The notes under the pieces: model-generated
The model's database searches: none
The model's input: the letters and a program-made list of their open reading frames with translations, nothing else
What the model was told of the DNA's origin: nothing
DNA from: Microbacterium invictum
GTDB lineage: Bacteria > Actinomycetota > Actinomycetes > Actinomycetales > Microbacteriaceae
Assembly (NCBI RefSeq): GCF_034421375.1
Contig: NZ_CP139779.1
Location: 2,170,001-2,234,000 of the forward strand
Direction: 5' to 3'
Length of the DNA: 64,000 nt
Made by a program: the position numbers and the translations under genes
Shown here: in pieces, positions 10,587 through 16,748 of the stretch
Layout of the letters: the number at the start of each line of letters is the position of its first letter
Position numbering within the stretch: position 1 is the stretch's first letter

Positions 10587-12173
10587 GTGACCCAGAACGC
10601 CCCCGCCGCAGCGGCGCGGCCCCGCGAGCAGTGGACCGGTCAGGTCGGCTTCATCCTCTCGGCGATCGGATCGGCCGTCGGCCTCGGCAACATCTGGCGC
10701 TTCCCGGGCGTCGCCTACGAGAACGGCGGCGGGGCGTTCCTCATCCCGTATCTCGTGGCGCTCCTGACCGCGGGCATACCGATCCTGTTCCTCGACTACG
10801 CTCTCGGGCACCGGTTCCGCGGCGCCGCGCCGACCGCGTTCCGCCGCATCGGTCGCTCGCTCGGCCGGTTCACCGAGTCGCTCGGCTGGTTCCAGGTGGC
10901 GATCGCCTTCGTGATCGGGCTCTACTACACCGCGGTGATCGCCTGGGCGCTGAGCTACTTCGTCTTCTCGTTCGACCTGCGGTGGGGCGATGACCCCGCC
11001 ACCTTCTTCCAGGCCGACTTCCTCCAGGTCGGCGACCCCGGGCTGAGCCTGGAGTTCGTGCCCGGGGTGCTCATCCCCCTCGCTCTGGTCTGGATCGCGG
11101 CGATCCTCGTCCTCGCCGCCGGGGTGGCCAAGGGCCTGCAGCGGGCGAATGTCATCTTCCTGCCGGTCCTCATCGTCGCCTTCCTCGTGCTGGTGGTGCG
11201 GGCGCTGTTCCTCGACGGCGCCGCCGAGGGACTGAACGCCCTGTTCACCCCGAACTGGGCGGCGCTGGGCGACCCGAACGTGTGGATCGCGGCGTACAGC
11301 CAGATCTTCTTCTCGCTGTCGATCGCCTTCGGGATCATGATCACCTACGCCTCGTACCGCCGCCGGCGGTCGAACCTCACCGCCCCCGGCCTGGTGGTCG
11401 CGTTCGCGAACTCGTCGTTCGAGATCCTCGCCGGGATCGGAGTCTTCGCGACGCTGGGGTTCTTCGCCTTCCAGCAGGGCATCGAGGTCTCCGAGCTCGA
11501 GGGTCTGACCGGCGTGGGGCTGTCGTTCATCACGTTCCCCGCGATCGTGTCGCAGATGCCCGGTGGCCCGCTGTTCGGCTGCCTCTTCTTCGGCTCGCTC
11601 ACCCTCGCCGGGTTCACGTCGCTGATCTCGGTGCTGCAGGTCGTCTCGGCGGCGTTCCAGGAGAAGTTCCGCCTGACCCCGCGCGCCGCGGCCGCCACGG
11701 TCGGCTCGGTGTCGGCGGTGCTGTCGATTCTGCTCTTCTCGACGACCACGGGGCTCCTCGCCCTCGATGTCACGGACCAGTACGCCAACAACGTCGGGAT
11801 CGTCGCCTCGGCGGTGCTCACCACGATCCTGGTCATCTGGGTGCTGCGGGGCGGCCCCGAACTCCGCTACCACCTCGATGCGGTCTCCACCTTCAAGGTC
11901 GGGCGCGTCTGGGCGCTGCTCGTGGGCGTCCTGGCGCCGATCGTCCTGGCATACATGCTGATCCAGCGCGTCGTCGTGCTGATCGTCGAGGGGTACGGCG
12001 GACTCCCGCCGTGGTACCTGGCGGTGTTCGGCTGGGGGACGATCGCGTTCCTGGTCGTCGCGGCGATCGTGATGTCGGCGCTGAAGTGGCGGGACTCGCC
12101 CGACGACTTCCGGGCGTGGCCGCCGTTCCCCCCCGAGGGTCAGCCTGCGACACGGAAGGAGCGGGTGCGATGA
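10587..12173 (+). CDS. NSS-family sodium-dependent amino acid transporter
   Basis: 528 aa. The GTG start at 10587 is preferred over a frame from 10512 because GGAGG lies 6 bp upstream. The helix-1 sodium and substrate signature GSAVGLGNIWRFPGVAYENG is conserved (~ residues 27-46), identifying the neurotransmitter:sodium symporter family (LeuT/MetP type) with about 12 helices. The next gene is a MetS-like small subunit whose ATG overlaps this stop, the arrangement of MetPS of Corynebacterium glutamicum, which imports methionine and alanine. The family supports amino-acid uptake; methionine/alanine specificity is inferred from the pairing. Confidence 0.94.
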   Translation: MTQNAPAAAARPREQWTGQVGFILSAIGSAVGLGNIWRFPGVAYENGGGAFLIPYLVALLTAGIPILFLDYALGHRFRGAAPTAFRRIGRSLGRFTESLGWFQVAIAFVIGLYYTAVIAWALSYFVFSFDLRWGDDPATFFQADFLQVGDPGLSLEFVPGVLIPLALVWIAAILVLAAGVAKGLQRANVIFLPVLIVAFLVLVVRALFLDGAAEGLNALFTPNWAALGDPNVWIAAYSQIFFSLSIAFGIMITYASYRRRRSNLTAPGLVVAFANSSFEILAGIGVFATLGFFAFQQGIEVSELEGLTGVGLSFITFPAIVSQMPGGPLFGCLFFGSLTLAGFTSLISVLQVVSAAFQEKFRLTPRAAAATVGSVSAVLSILLFSTTTGLLALDVTDQYANNVGIVASAVLTTILVIWVLRGGPELRYHLDAVSTFKVGRVWALLVGVLAPIVLAYMLIQRVVVLIVEGYGGLPPWYLAVFGWGTIAFLVVAAIVMSALKWRDSPDDFRAWPPFPPEGQPATRKERVR

Positions 12174-12337
12174 CCGGCCTCGCCATCGCTTTCCTGATCC
12201 TGTCGATCACGATCGTCTGGGGAGGGCTGGTCGCCAGCATCCTGTTCCTTCGGTCGCGACCGGAACCGGCGGAGTATCCGCCGGGCGGGGTCGACGATCA
12301 CCGCGAAGACATCGGTCCTGCCGAGCGCGACACCTGA
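12170..12337 (+). CDS. MetS-like NSS transporter small subunit
   Basis: 55 aa. One membrane helix (residues ~3-26) is followed by an Arg/Pro-rich charged tail. Its ATG lies within the ATGA that ends the transporter gene, so translation is coupled. The size, position and helix-then-charged-tail layout fit the MetS family of accessory subunits of methionine/alanine NSS importers. Its last 40 bp overlap the 3' end of the convergent gene on the minus strand. Confidence 0.85.
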   Translation: MTGLAIAFLILSITIVWGGLVASILFLRSRPEPAEYPPGGVDDHREDIGPAERDT

Positions 12338-13611
12338 ACCCTGCGTCGTGCGCGCTGCACCGTGCGGACGACGGCCCGTGCGGGGACGCCGACGACCACG
12401 GCCAGCCGTCCCGCCGGGGTGCGGTCCATGGGTCCGAGCACCGTCTTGCGCTCCCACGCCAACCGCAGTCGGCCGCCGCGCCCGGTGTGAAGGACCGGCT
12501 CGGCGAGAAGCCCCTGTCGGCGGAGCCCGACCAGTCGTTCGACGTCCGCGACCCAGTCGTCGTCGGCCCCGTCGTGGAGGTAGTTCTCCCGCGACCACTG
12601 CGGGGTCGGCAGCCGGAATCGCCCGGCGAGGAGGTCATCCTCCCCGCCGAGGACCCCGCTCCCCTCGAAGACCACGTTGATCAAGGCGGGCGACACGCCG
12701 AAGGTGTCGAGGGCGAGCACCGGGATGCCGCGCGCGATGGCTTCGATCGCCGCCGTCGAGCTGATCGTCACCAGCCCCCGGGCGTGATCGAGGGCCGACT
12801 GCATCGGCTCGGTCGACACGACGAGATTCTCCGGCGTCGCGCCCAGCGAACGCAGGAGGTCGGGGAAGGAGTCGCGCTCCACATGGGTCTGGTGCTCCCC
12901 CTCGGCGGCGCGCAGCTTGACGACCACACGGCGCGACGAGTCGGCGAGCGCGAGCCGTCGGAGCATCTCGGCCAGCCGCAGGCGGTCTGGCCGCTCTCGC
13001 GGCACGACCGCCTGCGTGGCGAAGACGACGTCGGTCGCATCCGCGTCGTGCCGGCGGTCTCTCGCCCGTTCGGCGGCTTTGGCGAACGGGAGGGTGGCCA
13101 GAGCGAAGCGGTGCCGGATGCCCGTGCGCACCGACAGGGCAGCGAACTCGGTCCGCTCGCGATGGGAGTGCACCACGAAGAGGTCCGCCCCCCGCCGGTA
13201 GATCAGCGCCTTGCGCGTGGCCGGGATCGAGATGCCGGGGAGGCCGGTCACGATCACCGGACGCGCCGGGAGGTCCGCCAGAAGCCGGGCGAGCACCCGC
13301 ACGAGGGGTCCGCGCGCACCGAGCACCACGACGTCGGGCGGATCGTCGAGGAGGCTCCGTCTGAGGCGATCGAGGCCGACGCGGGCGACGGCACCGCCCG
13401 GCAGGCCGCTCGTCGCGAGGGCCGCCCGCTGCTGGTCGGCCGAGACGGCGAGCGGGGTGTCGAGGATCCTCATGGAGCGATTCCAGTGCTCGGGGGCACT
13501 TCCGACCAGGGCCGCCGTCCACTTCACGTACGAGTCGGTGTCGGCGATGCCGACGATCCGGATCCGCGGGGCAGGCCCCCTTCTCGTCGTTCCCGTCACC
13601 TCGGCTGTCAC
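12298..13611 (-). CDS. DUF6716-like putative glycosyltransferase
   Basis: 437 aa, soluble, with no signal peptide or membrane helix. It looks like a GT-B-type fold: an N-terminal Rossmann-like half starting RIRIVGIADTDSYVKW, and a C-terminal half with VKLRAAEGEHQTH, then LVTISSTAAIEAIARGIPVLALDTFG (~ residues 290-315), the nucleotide-sugar-binding S-S-T-x-x-x-E-A pattern seen in CMP-sialic-acid and CDP-glycerol transferases. I associate it with DUF6716, annotated as putative glycosyltransferase in actinobacteria. The ATG overlaps the neuB-like stop by 4 bp, so it belongs to the nonulosonate operon and may add the sugar or extend the acceptor. Transferase function is inferred. Confidence 0.72.
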   Translation of the reverse strand: MTAEVTGTTRRGPAPRIRIVGIADTDSYVKWTAALVGSAPEHWNRSMRILDTPLAVSADQQRAALATSGLPGGAVARVGLDRLRRSLLDDPPDVVVLGARGPLVRVLARLLADLPARPVIVTGLPGISIPATRKALIYRRGADLFVVHSHRERTEFAALSVRTGIRHRFALATLPFAKAAERARDRRHDADATDVVFATQAVVPRERPDRLRLAEMLRRLALADSSRRVVVKLRAAEGEHQTHVERDSFPDLLRSLGATPENLVVSTEPMQSALDHARGLVTISSTAAIEAIARGIPVLALDTFGVSPALINVVFEGSGVLGGEDDLLAGRFRLPTPQWSRENYLHDGADDDWVADVERLVGLRRQGLLAEPVLHTGRGGRLRLAWERKTVLGPMDRTPAGRLAVVVGVPARAVVRTVQRARRRVQVSRSAGPMSSR

Positions 13612-14480
13612 GTCGCGACGCGGCGGAGCTTGGCCATCGGGCCCTGCTCGCTGTCGTACACGCGCTTGACGCCGTCACCGAGCGCGGCCTCGATGATCCG
13701 GATGTCGCGTACGAGGTGCTGAAGACCGGCCGGTTCGAGCGAGGCGGCGTGGTCCGAACCCCACATCGTGCGGTCGAGCGTGATGTGGCGCTCGACAGCG
13801 ACGGCCCCGAGTGCGACCGCGGCGAGCGAGACCTGCAGTCCGCGCTCGTGGCCCGAATAGCCCACCGGAACACCCGGGAACCGCTCGCGCAGGGCCGGGA
13901 TCATGCGGAGGTTGGCCTCCTCCGGCTCCATCGGGTACGTCGACGTGGCGTGCATCAGCACGAGGTCGTCGGTGCCGAGGACCTCGACCGCCCCGGTGAT
14001 CTGCTCCATCGTCGACATCCCCGTGGAGAGGATGACGGGCTTGCCGGTGTCGCGGAGGGCACTCAGCAGCGCGCGATCGGTGAGGCACGCCGAGGCGACC
14101 TTGTGCGCGACCACGCCGAGGTCCTCGAGGAATTCGACGCTCGGCACATCCCACGGTGACGCGAACCACTCCAGACCCCGCAGGATCGCGTGGTCGGAGA
14201 TCTCGATGTACTGGTCGCGGTCGAACTCGACGCGCCGGCGGTAGTCGAGGTAGCTCATCGTGCCCCAGGGCGTCTCGCGCGGGATGTCTCGCATGTGCTC
14301 GGGAGTGGAGATCTCGGGGGTGCGCTTCTGGAACTTCACCGCGTCCACGCCGGCGTCCGCTGCGACGTCGATGAGGCGCTTGGCGATCTCGACGTCGCCG
14401 TTGTGGTTGAGCCCGATCTCGCCGATGACGTAGGCGGGGTGGCCGCCTCCGATGACGCGGGTGCCGATGGTGACGGTCAT
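13608..14480 (-). CDS. neuB: Nonulosonic acid (NeuB/Kdn-type) synthase without SAF domain
   Basis: 290 aa. It is a TIM-barrel synthase that condenses phosphoenolpyruvate with a hexose to make a nine-carbon sialic-acid-like sugar. Visible family motifs: GEIGLNHNGD (20-29), DAVKFQKR (46-53), ASPWD (107-111), KVASACLTD (127-135), STGMST (152-157), GYSGHE with metal-ligand-type His211, and ERHIT with His232. The protein ends about where the C-terminal antifreeze-like (SAF) domain of NeuB (total ~345 aa) normally starts. The stop overlaps the next gene's start, so this is the natural end and not a frameshift. Flanking genes are coupled by 4-bp overlaps on both sides. Substrate choice (ManNAc, its 6-phosphate or Man-6-P) cannot be read directly. 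Confidence 0.93.
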   Translation of the reverse strand: MTVTIGTRVIGGGHPAYVIGEIGLNHNGDVEIAKRLIDVAADAGVDAVKFQKRTPEISTPEHMRDIPRETPWGTMSYLDYRRRVEFDRDQYIEISDHAILRGLEWFASPWDVPSVEFLEDLGVVAHKVASACLTDRALLSALRDTGKPVILSTGMSTMEQITGAVEVLGTDDLVLMHATSTYPMEPEEANLRMIPALRERFPGVPVGYSGHERGLQVSLAAVALGAVAVERHITLDRTMWGSDHAASLEPAGLQHLVRDIRIIEAALGDGVKRVYDSEQGPMAKLRRVAT

Positions 14481-15676
14481 GGTGTGGTCCGGTTCTCGTG
14501 GAGGAAGGGGACGGACGTCGGTCCGCGACGGGCGCGGAGCACGCGCTCGGCGAGTTCTCTGACGGCGCCGTCGCCGCCGCGACGGTCGAGGACGATCCGC
14601 GCAGCGCTGAGGACGAGGGGATCGGCGTCGCCGACGGCGACCGGCCAGCCCACGATGTCCATCGCGGGGATGTCGTTGACGTCATTGCCGAGGTACGCGA
14701 TGCGCGAGAGCGGGATGCGCGCGGCGTCCGCCCACTCGCGCAGCGCGGCCGCCTTGTCGTCGACGCCCTGGAGCACCTCGACGCGGAGTTTGCGCCCCCG
14801 GGCGCCGACGACGGGGTTCTGCTCCGTCGAGAGGATGAGGAAGGGGATGTGCGCGGCCCGCAGGCGGGCGACGCCCATGCCGTCGGCCCGGCTGACGCGC
14901 ACCGACTCGACCCCGGTCTCGGTGACCGTGACGGTGTCGTCGGTGTGCACACCGTCGAAGTCGGTGACGACGGCGTCGACGTCGAGGGGCTCGGGCACGT
15001 CGACGAGGGGAGACAGAGCCCGCGCGAATTCGAGTTCGGCGAAGGAATCGATCTCGATCGCGGTGCGCTCGGGCACCTCGGCGATCCCGATACTGCCGAA
15101 GAAGCGATGCTGGACGGTTCGGAAGCCCTTGGCGCGCATCACGTAGAACGCACCGGTCTCGAGGTAGTGCGGTTCGCGGTCCTGCCGGCGCGGACGGCGG
15201 TCGGCGCGGTGGTTGATGGCCTCGGCGCAGTCGCCAGTCCCCTTCCGCCACAGGAATCCGTAGGTCTCGATCGCCGAGAACACCGAGTCCCGACGTCGCT
15301 GCTGCACGAGCCGGATGGCGCCGGCGAGCGCCTCGCTGTCGATGAAGGGCGAGGTGGCCTGCAAGAACGCCACGACACCGACGTTGATCTCGCGCGCCTC
15401 GAGGTCGTCGAGGGCGTGGAGGATCGCCGATTCCGAACTCGCCGTGTCTCCGGACAGGTCGGCGGGACGCCGGATGATCTCGGCTCCCCATTCCTCGGCG
15501 ACCGCGGCGATCTCGTCGTCGTCGGTCGACACGCACACGCGATCGACGAGGTCGCATCGCCGCGCGGCCTGGATGGCTCGCCCGATCAGGGGGATCCCGC
15601 CGACACGTCGCAGATTCTTGCGCGGGATGCCCTTCGACCCGCCCCGGGCGGGGATGATCGCGACCACGTCGCTCAT
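14477..15676 (-). CDS. neuA: CMP-nonulosonate synthetase fused to KdsC-like HAD phosphatase
   Basis: 399 aa from the ATG at 15676, which overlaps the upstream stop (ATGA); a longer in-frame extension is out-of-frame shadow. Residues ~1-230 form an acylneuraminate cytidylyltransferase with IPARGGSKGIPRKN (7-20), CVSTDDDEIA and FLQATSPF. Residues ~235-399 form a HAD domain like KdsC, with nucleophile motif VTDFDGVHTDD, the loop ILSTE and a GNDVNDIPAMD metal motif. Both Asp residues of motif I are present, so the phosphatase is probably active. The protein could therefore remove the 9-phosphate made by the synthase and then load CMP. Vertebrate CMAS has the same domain order, but its HAD part is not an active phosphatase. 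Confidence 0.92.
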   Translation of the reverse strand: MSDVVAIIPARGGSKGIPRKNLRRVGGIPLIGRAIQAARRCDLVDRVCVSTDDDEIAAVAEEWGAEIIRRPADLSGDTASSESAILHALDDLEAREINVGVVAFLQATSPFIDSEALAGAIRLVQQRRRDSVFSAIETYGFLWRKGTGDCAEAINHRADRRPRRQDREPHYLETGAFYVMRAKGFRTVQHRFFGSIGIAEVPERTAIEIDSFAELEFARALSPLVDVPEPLDVDAVVTDFDGVHTDDTVTVTETGVESVRVSRADGMGVARLRAAHIPFLILSTEQNPVVGARGRKLRVEVLQGVDDKAAALREWADAARIPLSRIAYLGNDVNDIPAMDIVGWPVAVGDADPLVLSAARIVLDRRGGDGAVRELAERVLRARRGPTSVPFLHENRTTP

Positions 15677-16608
15677 CGCTCGGCTCCCGCTCGGGTGTCC
15701 GCTGTCGGGACCGGCTCGCCGTTGATCGTCGAACCGCTCCCGGCGAGGACGAGGCGGAGGGTGGTCGAGGTCGTCGAGGGGAGGGTGTGCAACTCGAGCG
15801 GCCGGGTCGCGCCGGCGAGGATCAGCTCCACGGGGACCGATGCCGCGGTCACCGCGACACCGGGGATGCGGCGGACGGCGTCGAGCTGTTCGGCGTTCTC
15901 GCGCCGGTGCGGGAGGTAGGTCGCCGGCTCCGCGCCGGCCGGTGCAGCGGCGGCCACCTCGGTGAGCCACGCGAGATAGGCGTCGCGCGACATCCGCCCA
16001 TCGATGGGTCGGGCGCTTCCCAGGATGACGCGGGTGCCGAGATCGGCGGACGCAGAACCCGTCGCGCGCGTCCAGGCGAATCCGTGGCGCTCGACCGCGA
16101 AGCCCCGGTCGCCCATTGCGGTGATGCGGTCGCGGCCGAGGTCGAAGGCCGTGAAGAGGTGCGCGGCCCGGGCACGGGCGCGGCGGGCGATCGTCTCGGC
16201 GGCGAACGGGGCGACGCGCGAGGTCAATCCCCGCTCCGCCACGTGGGGGCGGGCGTACGGGCGGCGCTGCAGCAGGGTGTCGGCGAAGGGCAGAGCGATG
16301 GCGCCGTCGTCGAGGAAGGTGAGGGTGCGCGGACGCAGGATCGACGCGGCGAGGCGGAACTGGCCGGAGAACCCGTCGCCGACGAGCCAGTGCGGATGCT
16401 GCGCGAGCAGCTTCCACGGGATGCCGAGGTAGGGCTCCATCTCGCCGAATCGCGCACCGCGCGACAGCAGGAGGTCGGCGGTCTCGGACATCTGCGGCGT
16501 CAGCCGGCCCGCAACGGGGACGGTGGTGCCGTACGCGGCCGCCCATTCGGCGGCGCCGAGGAGTTGCAGGGGTGATTCCACCCACGCCAGCACGGCGTCT
16601 CGGTTCAT
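15673..16608 (-). CDS. Sialyltransferase/polysialyltransferase-like protein
   Basis: 311 aa from the ATG at 16608, preceded by GGGAGGTGG. The N-terminus LAWVESPLQLLGAAEWA and the FLDDGAIALPFAD motif at ~ residue 100 resemble bacterial sialyltransferase and polysialyltransferase families (GT52 or POLYST type), which use CMP-sialic acid. YLPHRRENAEQL (~ residue 235) and the following VPVELIL are also consistent with that fold. It has no signal peptide or membrane helix, so it acts at the cytoplasmic face. It is first in the four-gene operon and overlaps neuA by 4 bp. The family assignment rests on motif resemblance; the acceptor is unknown. Confidence 0.72.
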   Translation of the reverse strand: MNRDAVLAWVESPLQLLGAAEWAAAYGTTVPVAGRLTPQMSETADLLLSRGARFGEMEPYLGIPWKLLAQHPHWLVGDGFSGQFRLAASILRPRTLTFLDDGAIALPFADTLLQRRPYARPHVAERGLTSRVAPFAAETIARRARARAAHLFTAFDLGRDRITAMGDRGFAVERHGFAWTRATGSASADLGTRVILGSARPIDGRMSRDAYLAWLTEVAAAAPAGAEPATYLPHRRENAEQLDAVRRIPGVAVTAASVPVELILAGATRPLELHTLPSTTSTTLRLVLAGSGSTINGEPVPTADTRAGAER

Positions 16609-16748
16609 GCCACCTCCCAGAAGGTTCAGCGTCGATCGCGAGGATGAACGGCGAGGAGTCCTCCGAGGGTCGGTGGGCGACCGGCAGGTGAACGTCCGGT
16701 GGACGGCGCCGGGTGTGGATAACTCCGAGTCCACCCGCGGGGGCGCAT

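Follow-up and report, generated by a model that had tools for sequence, protein, structure and literature searches.

The Streptomyces coelicolor locus SCO4873-81 is described as PhoP dependent and as containing neuAB (PMC2267785), the genes SCO4873-4882 are assigned to teichulosonic acid with reference to Ostash 2014 (PMC13011467), and the S. lividans counterpart is given as SLI_5146-5156 with the same reference (PMC8003754). The Streptomyces teichulosonic polymer is composed of galactose and 3-deoxy-D-glycero-D-galacto-nonulosonic acid (Kdn) (PMC11481543, PMC7831098). Here, we analyzed a 64,000-nucleotide (nt) stretch of the Microbacterium invictum genome (assembly GCF_034421375.1, contig NZ_CP139779.1, positions 2,170,001 to 2,234,000), hereafter the window, in which four minus-strand genes (12298-16608) form an operon orthologous to SCO4879-4882. 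In our view, it likely encodes a small set of genes for a Kdn-containing glycan of the cell envelope, predicted to be induced through PhoP under phosphate scarcity. A sequence-only reading had put it forward as the best candidate in the window for an undescribed system; since its genes are already part of SCO4873-4882 as published, this novelty does not stand, and the operon is a four-gene reduced relative of the known teichulosonic-acid-type locus. What is new is the predicted link to phosphate, the existence of two alternative transferase modules, a putative one-polypeptide cytidine monophosphate (CMP)-Kdn synthase in some relatives, and the epimerase-like fold without conserved acids of DUF6716. 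The array mentioned below, the two modules and the missing SAF domain all lie beyond that earlier reading.

The four open reading frames (ORFs), all read as real genes from ORF calls, Pfam and conservation, and the associated features are the following:

15673-16608, minus strand: GT1, a GT-B sialyltransferase-like protein of the SCO4882 type, 311 amino acids (aa)
14477-15676, minus strand: NeuA-HAD fusion protein, 399 aa
15002-15676, minus strand: NeuA-type CMP-nonulosonate synthetase domain (PF02348), residues 1-225 of the fusion
14477-15001, minus strand: KdsC/Kdn-9-phosphate (Kdn-9-P)-phosphatase-type haloacid dehalogenase (HAD) domain, residues 226-399 of the fusion
13608-14480, minus strand: NeuB-type phosphoenolpyruvate (PEP)-condensing synthase without C-terminal SAF/antifreeze domain (PF03102), 290 aa
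12298-13611, minus strand: DUF6716 putative GT-B glycosyltransferase of the SCO4879 type, 437 aa, GTG start
16672-16704, minus strand: PHO-box-like array of three 11-nt direct-repeat units, GTCCACCGGAC GTTCACCTGCC GGTCGCCCACC on the operon strand, 63 nt before the GT1 ATG

The sequence-only reading had all four genes overlapping by ATGA. The gene number, the strand and the 4-nt overlaps hold at all three junctions; the sequence is ATGA at GT1/NeuA-HAD and NeuA-HAD/NeuB and GTGA at NeuB/DUF6716. GGGAGG, a likely Shine-Dalgarno sequence, precedes the GT1 ATG. The identities given in that reading (sialyltransferase-like protein, cytidylyltransferase fused to a KdsC-like phosphatase, NeuB-type synthase and DUF6716) were confirmed by Pfam (CTP_transf_3 at 101 bits, HAD hydrolase, NeuB at 269 bits, DUF6716 at 428 bits) and by the GT-B motifs of GT1, for which no Pfam family exceeded its cut-off. 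No NCBIfam model cut-off was reached by any of the four proteins.

As in S. coelicolor, orthologues of DUF6716 (SCO4879), NeuA-HAD (SCO4880), NeuB (SCO4881) and GT1 (SCO4882) adjoin one another in the window, and NeuB is 64-68% identical to that of the Streptomyces teichulosonic locus. The attribution of SCO4880 to NeuA-HAD and of SCO4881 to NeuB follows from gene order and annotation. In Planobispora rosea, RS15220, 15225, 15230 and 15235 are equated with SCO4882, 4879, 4877 and 4878, and the sialic acid synthase is mapped to SCO4880 (PMC8269224). The P. rosea locus in our set (L149) runs GT1, DUF6716, polysialyltransferase, GT2, with a synthetase-phosphatase-synthase fusion, which fits the published mapping one to one and thus identifies the window operon with the SCO4879-4882 set. 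Our named loci are the 80 best among 585 confirmed matches of a single scan that used a NeuB alignment. Of these, all five parts (DUF6716, CMP synthetase, HAD, NeuB and GT1) lie within the fetched stretch in 42 by tblastn. They are present in six of the seven named Streptomyces loci, the seventh (L202) ending at a contig edge, and they stand in a row in all three Streptomyces-like loci of a large-genome genus (L090-L092). The Streptomyces locus L208 reads acyltransferase, PF07388 polysialyltransferase, GT2, DUF6716, NeuA-HAD in one ORF, NeuB, GT1, M20 peptidase and Bmp lipoprotein. The window differs from the Streptomyces locus in being a single four-gene overlapping operon without the SCO4877 polysialyltransferase and the SCO4878 GT2, so its glycan should differ from the Streptomyces polymer. 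Titles and abstract beginnings, with subscription papers mostly uncovered, gave no description of this operon in Microbacterium; for Pontimonas salivibrio, another member of the Microbacteriaceae, one sentence mentions sialic acid addition (PMC6106888).

We propose a model in which PhoP would switch the operon on when phosphate is scarce. NeuB would then condense PEP with mannose-6-phosphate (Man-6-P) to Kdn-9-P, the HAD domain of the fusion would release Kdn, and its cytidylyltransferase domain would convert Kdn to CMP-Kdn. GT1 as a GT-B sialyltransferase and DUF6716 as a GT-B glycosyltransferase would finally build Kdn into, or cap with it, a phosphate-free wall glycopolymer, which would spare phosphate. 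Computation directly gives the gene families, the conserved catalytic residues, the orthology and adjacency, the lack of the epimerase families searched and the PHO-box-like array; the Man-6-P substrate, the Kdn product, the acceptor, the linkage, which of the transferases uses CMP-Kdn and PhoP binding are what we infer here. The chemistry, already sketched in the sequence-only reading, is likely correct, being supported by the epimerase families not found and by the Man-6-P isomerase domains present in the genome, and the orthology to the Streptomyces teichulosonic-acid locus supports the proposed transfer to a wall glycan.

For the synthase, the PEP and metal residues E21, K49, K127, Y182, H211, H232 and D243 are present in 81 of 81 rows (our own plus the 80 loci). 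Pfam lists no SAF family in NeuB, and the protein is at most 317 aa long in all 80 loci measured (one broken at 125), the SAF domain being missing throughout this set. The SAF domain of Neisseria NeuB carries an arginine near the N-acetyl group; a synthase that lacks this domain would fit a sugar in which no such group is present.

In the fusion protein, the NeuA-type domain matches PpNeuA (9t4z) and a CMP-N-acetylneuraminic acid (Neu5Ac) synthetase (1qwj), and the HAD motifs (Asp pair, Lys, GNDxxD) are intact. E285 and K296 align with the two residues, Glu56 and Lys67, that set specificity in the Kdn-9-P phosphatase of Bacteroides. Glu and Lys stand there in 69 of 69 rows (our own plus 68 loci, one row being gapped at the Asp pair), as against R/D in KdsC (1j8d) and A/Q in a HAD III-A protein (3n1u), and PDB entries 4hgq and 4hgr differ from 3e81 exactly at these residues. 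The best NCBIfam score of the domain is that of the Kdn-9-P phosphatase model NF058599. The same three activities, synthase, 9-phosphatase and CMP synthetase, make up the pathway of Bacteroides thetaiotaomicron, BT1713-1715, which starts from Man-6-P, the substrate that we predict for the window. BT1714 and the Kdn-9-P phosphatase of Bacteroides are named in PMC6200933. The window operon differs from this pathway by the fusion of the phosphatase to the CMP synthetase, by the transferases within the operon and by the PHO-box-like array.

In all 66 loci tested, a single ORF encodes both the CMP synthetase and the HAD; L205 stands outside the domain and ORF lists for the 80 loci, its synthetase match being below the identity filter. 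NeuB is part of the fusion as well in 15 of the 67 actinobacterial loci with all three parts: 13 Streptosporangiaceae (e.g., Nonomuraea, Planobispora, Streptosporangium and Herbidospora), one Isoptericola and one Arthrobacter (L144, L147, L149, L151, L155, L157, L162, L164, L165, L168, L170, L172, L177, L195 and L197). One polypeptide with exactly these three activities argues that nothing else acts between the synthase and CMP activation, and such an ORF could possibly represent a one-enzyme route from Man-6-P to CMP-Kdn. Moreover, PDB entry 3mmz, a "putative HAD family hydrolase" from S. avermitilis, is nearly identical to the phosphatase of L090 (8155-8616); hence, this family may already have a solved Kdn-9-P phosphatase structure that does not bear the name.

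The substrate assignment leans on the absence of an epimerase gene from the operon, and the genome as a whole agrees with it: no PF02350 (UDP-GlcNAc 2-epimerase) and no PF07221 (AGE) were found, and NanE gave one match below its cut-off (22.5 versus 27 bits). Two type I Man-6-P isomerase catalytic domains (PF20511) are present; this family was used because PF01238, a C-terminal piece only, matched 2 of 14 controls and none in this genome, and was rejected as a test. Across 198 Microbacterium genomes, PF02350 occurs in 46/119 carriers of the cassette and 29/79 noncarriers (Fisher P = 0.88) and NanE in 29/119 and 13/79 (Fisher P = 0.22), with neither in 64/119 carriers. The sequence-only reading had named an epimerase co-conserved elsewhere in the genome as its own counterevidence; PF02350 and NanE are independent of the cassette. 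Within the families searched, an epimerase that is hidden or conserved along with the cassette was rejected, none being above cut-off in the genome and no association appearing across the genus. By contrast, in four genomes compared (G017, G022, G087 and G089), a PF02350 protein is encoded at most about 400 bases away from a NeuB of a second type.

Both transferases point to the GT-B class. In GT1, the motifs are DDG at 100-102, H234 and S278-T279, and the protein shares, in a comparison made without residue-level superposition, the GT-B fold and the D/E-D/E-G, H and S-S/T motifs of bacterial GT-B sialyltransferases (2yk4-7, 5wc6 and 2ex1). These structures represent CAZy families GT52, GT38 and GT80. 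GT1 differs from them in its predicted donor, CMP-Kdn, in an identity of about 10% in alignments and in lacking a Pfam family over cut-off. DUF6716 has a fold resembling that of UDP-GlcNAc 2-epimerases. In sequence-profile searches against the PDB, GT1 had no match and DUF6716 had 12 weak unrelated ones (E = 0.25 to 0.9). Our alignments hold 45 of 45 GT1 ORFs (A2) and 51 of 66 DUF6716 ORFs (A3). No paper naming DUF6716 was found in our literature search. DUF6716 also exceeds its cut-off in an Escherichia coli control genome, outside the actinobacteria.

Within Microbacterium, the cassette comes with one of two transferase modules. DUF6716 is present in all 56 loci counted (our own included; L272, from the same genome as L118, and L117, a second copy, were left out), of which 19 carry GT1 alone, 34 carry polysialyltransferase together with GT2, 3 lack both modules and none has the two at once. 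Polysialyltransferase (PF07388) and GT2 were not found in the 20 kb around the window operon or in the 18 other GT1-type loci. On a quick NeuB tree, in which the three loci with neither module were left unlabelled, one module change suffices (81 in the Shimodaira-Hasegawa-like approximate likelihood ratio test). With this single switch, the absence of loci with both modules counts as one evolutionary event; GT1 and polysialyltransferase occur together in 28 of the 80 named loci, and a functional exclusion between them was rejected on these two grounds.

A PHO box consists of 11-nt units in direct repeat, the core in S. coelicolor being GTTCACC (PMC4415409, PMC7244524). The array upstream of the operon consists of GTTCACC-type units spaced 11 nt, and the window has no two-unit match apart from two overlapping ones within it (0.30 expected; at least two in 5/100 shuffles). 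Upstream of 53 Microbacterium operons, the best two-unit scores average 11.3 of 14 (8.7 when shuffled), and 27 reach at least 12 of 14, compared to 1 on the other strand, 0 with the reversed motif and 0 to 2 at other spacings; the inner control upstream of NeuB gives 2/53 at that score. The M. invictum genome has 11 PHO-like sites (control, 1), among them the positive controls ~90 bp before PstS-PstC and ~60 bp before PhoX. Six of the ten sites other than the array lie inside predicted ORFs and probably arose by chance. As a motif, the array resembles the PHO box expected of a teichulosonic-acid locus, and the operon is probably under PhoP control through predicted binding, the Streptomyces locus being PhoP dependent. 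PHO-box-like sites stand at L292 2627-2644, L300 2613-2630 and L297 2518-2535, before pstS-pstC, phoX and a PhoB-like response regulator; the last lies 91 bp upstream, inside an overlapping predicted ORF.

Cassette-type NeuB (at least 77% identity) occurs in 119 of the 198 Microbacterium genomes, in three as fragments; six further genomes have only a second NeuB type, about 40% identical. A neighborhood comparison across the genus, proposed as a check in the sequence-only reading, covered the 29 nearest other loci read in Microbacterium: NeuA-HAD, NeuB and DUF6716 lie together in every one, and 28 also have a GT1 piece. Family-wide, DUF6716 matches 79/299 genomes and 29/85 Microbacteriaceae genera sampled, and all 29 other DUF6716 loci read from this search have NeuB and a NeuA/HAD piece alongside. 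This co-location within and beyond the genus means that the grouping is not due to chance. Class-wide, DUF6716 was found in 84/394 genomes, 81 over cut-off. In stretches from cassette-free Microbacterium genomes, cassette genes were found in 0/12, and an exonuclease gene adjoins a PKD-like gene in 7/12; in carriers, the cassette sits among these neighbors. Beside the operon in the window, a small plus-strand ORF (12170-12337), which presumably resembles a MetS-type small subunit, follows an SNF-type symporter gene and lies tail to tail with the end of DUF6716, overlapping it by ~40 bases. L117 (G043:C3) holds a second NeuA-HAD copy with an oppositely oriented NeuB, 72% identical; the full cassette is present in this genome too. 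The second NeuB type (about 31-44% identical), seen in at least 27 Microbacterium genomes, several times beside a NeuC-like epimerase (e.g., G017, G022, G087 and G089), probably marks a separate sialic- or legionaminic-type locus.

Several observations weigh against a PhoP-controlled Kdn cassette. The best NCBIfam model for NeuB is the N-acetylneuraminate synthase TIGR03569, whose cut-off it does not reach (259.6 versus 399.65 bits), and the HAD domain is also under the NF058599 cut-off (94.4 versus 180 bits). A phosphatase domain is not recognizable in 8 of the 80 named loci, which carry CMP synthetase and NeuB (L132, L134-L139 and L141; six Curtobacterium, one Glaciihabitans and one metagenome-assembled genome). 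The four genes include neither a flippase nor a polymerase nor an LCP ligase. The PHO-like signal is weak outside Microbacterium (9/60 loci at 12 of 14; other strand, 3), none of the Streptomyces operon upstreams examined reaches 12 of 14, and with three units the inner control upstream of NeuB is raised (23/53 at 15 of 21). Finally, 55/119 carriers have PF02350 or NanE, so N-acetylmannosamine (ManNAc)-6-phosphate may be available in some of them.

The NeuB score and these 55 genomes would suit a cassette making Neu5Ac, in which NeuB uses ManNAc-6-phosphate, supplied by an epimerase that is unrecognized or encoded elsewhere or by the scavenging of amino sugars, before phosphatase action and CMP activation as in animals. 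We regard this as improbable, because the M. invictum genome has neither PF02350 nor PF07221 nor an above-cut-off NanE, the cassette does not co-occur with PF02350 or NanE in the genus, the PF02350 neighbors belong to second-type NeuBs instead, the phosphatase carries the Glu56/Lys67 signature, and the orthologous Streptomyces locus makes a Kdn polymer. DUF6716 might itself be the missing sugar-nucleotide epimerase, with which the cassette would supply its own ManNAc, and its fold invites this idea. In residues 94-142, matched by eye rather than by superposition to the GD and EAG/PEE segments holding the conserved catalytic acids of the epimerases, no column has at least 60% D/E/H (52 rows); moreover, the profile match covers part of the C-terminal half only, and ManNAc would leave the conserved phosphatase domain pointless. 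DUF6716 was rejected as an epimerase despite its fold, and we would be very surprised to see this alternative vindicated. There is also a slim chance that the product is another ulosonate, such as a Kdo-like C8 acid or a nonulosonic acid of unknown type, or that it is placed on a protein or a lipid and not on the wall: the KdsC model scores 89.2 bits on the HAD domain, close to the Kdn-9-P model, and no polymer export gene is among the four. The synthase, however, is of the NeuB family, and the phosphatase signature, the orthology to a wall-polymer locus and the PHO-box-like array speak for the Kdn cassette.

Altogether, we tentatively combine three proposals, a conjunction that we would rate at somewhat under an even chance. 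Phosphate-starved Microbacterium would use Kdn to replace its wall polymer or to cap it, with two inherited chemotypes (a single sialyltransferase, as in the window, or polysialyltransferase plus GT2); a Streptosporangiaceae enzyme of about 680 residues would make CMP-Kdn from Man-6-P, PEP and CTP; and DUF6716 would found a CMP-Kdn- or UDP-sugar-using glycosyltransferase family on a 2-epimerase fold. The array, the natural fusion for CMP-Kdn synthesis and the putative glycosyltransferase family DUF6716 offer testable objects. If the Kdn-cassette reading is true, wall polymers of the teichulosonic-acid type, which are known in Kribbella and, with Kdn, in Streptomyces, would extend to the Microbacteriaceae, the making of a sialic-acid-like sugar without any epimerase would be explained, and a Kdn sugar would be tied to the saving of phosphate, much as when certain Gram-positive bacteria switch from teichoic to teichuronic acids.

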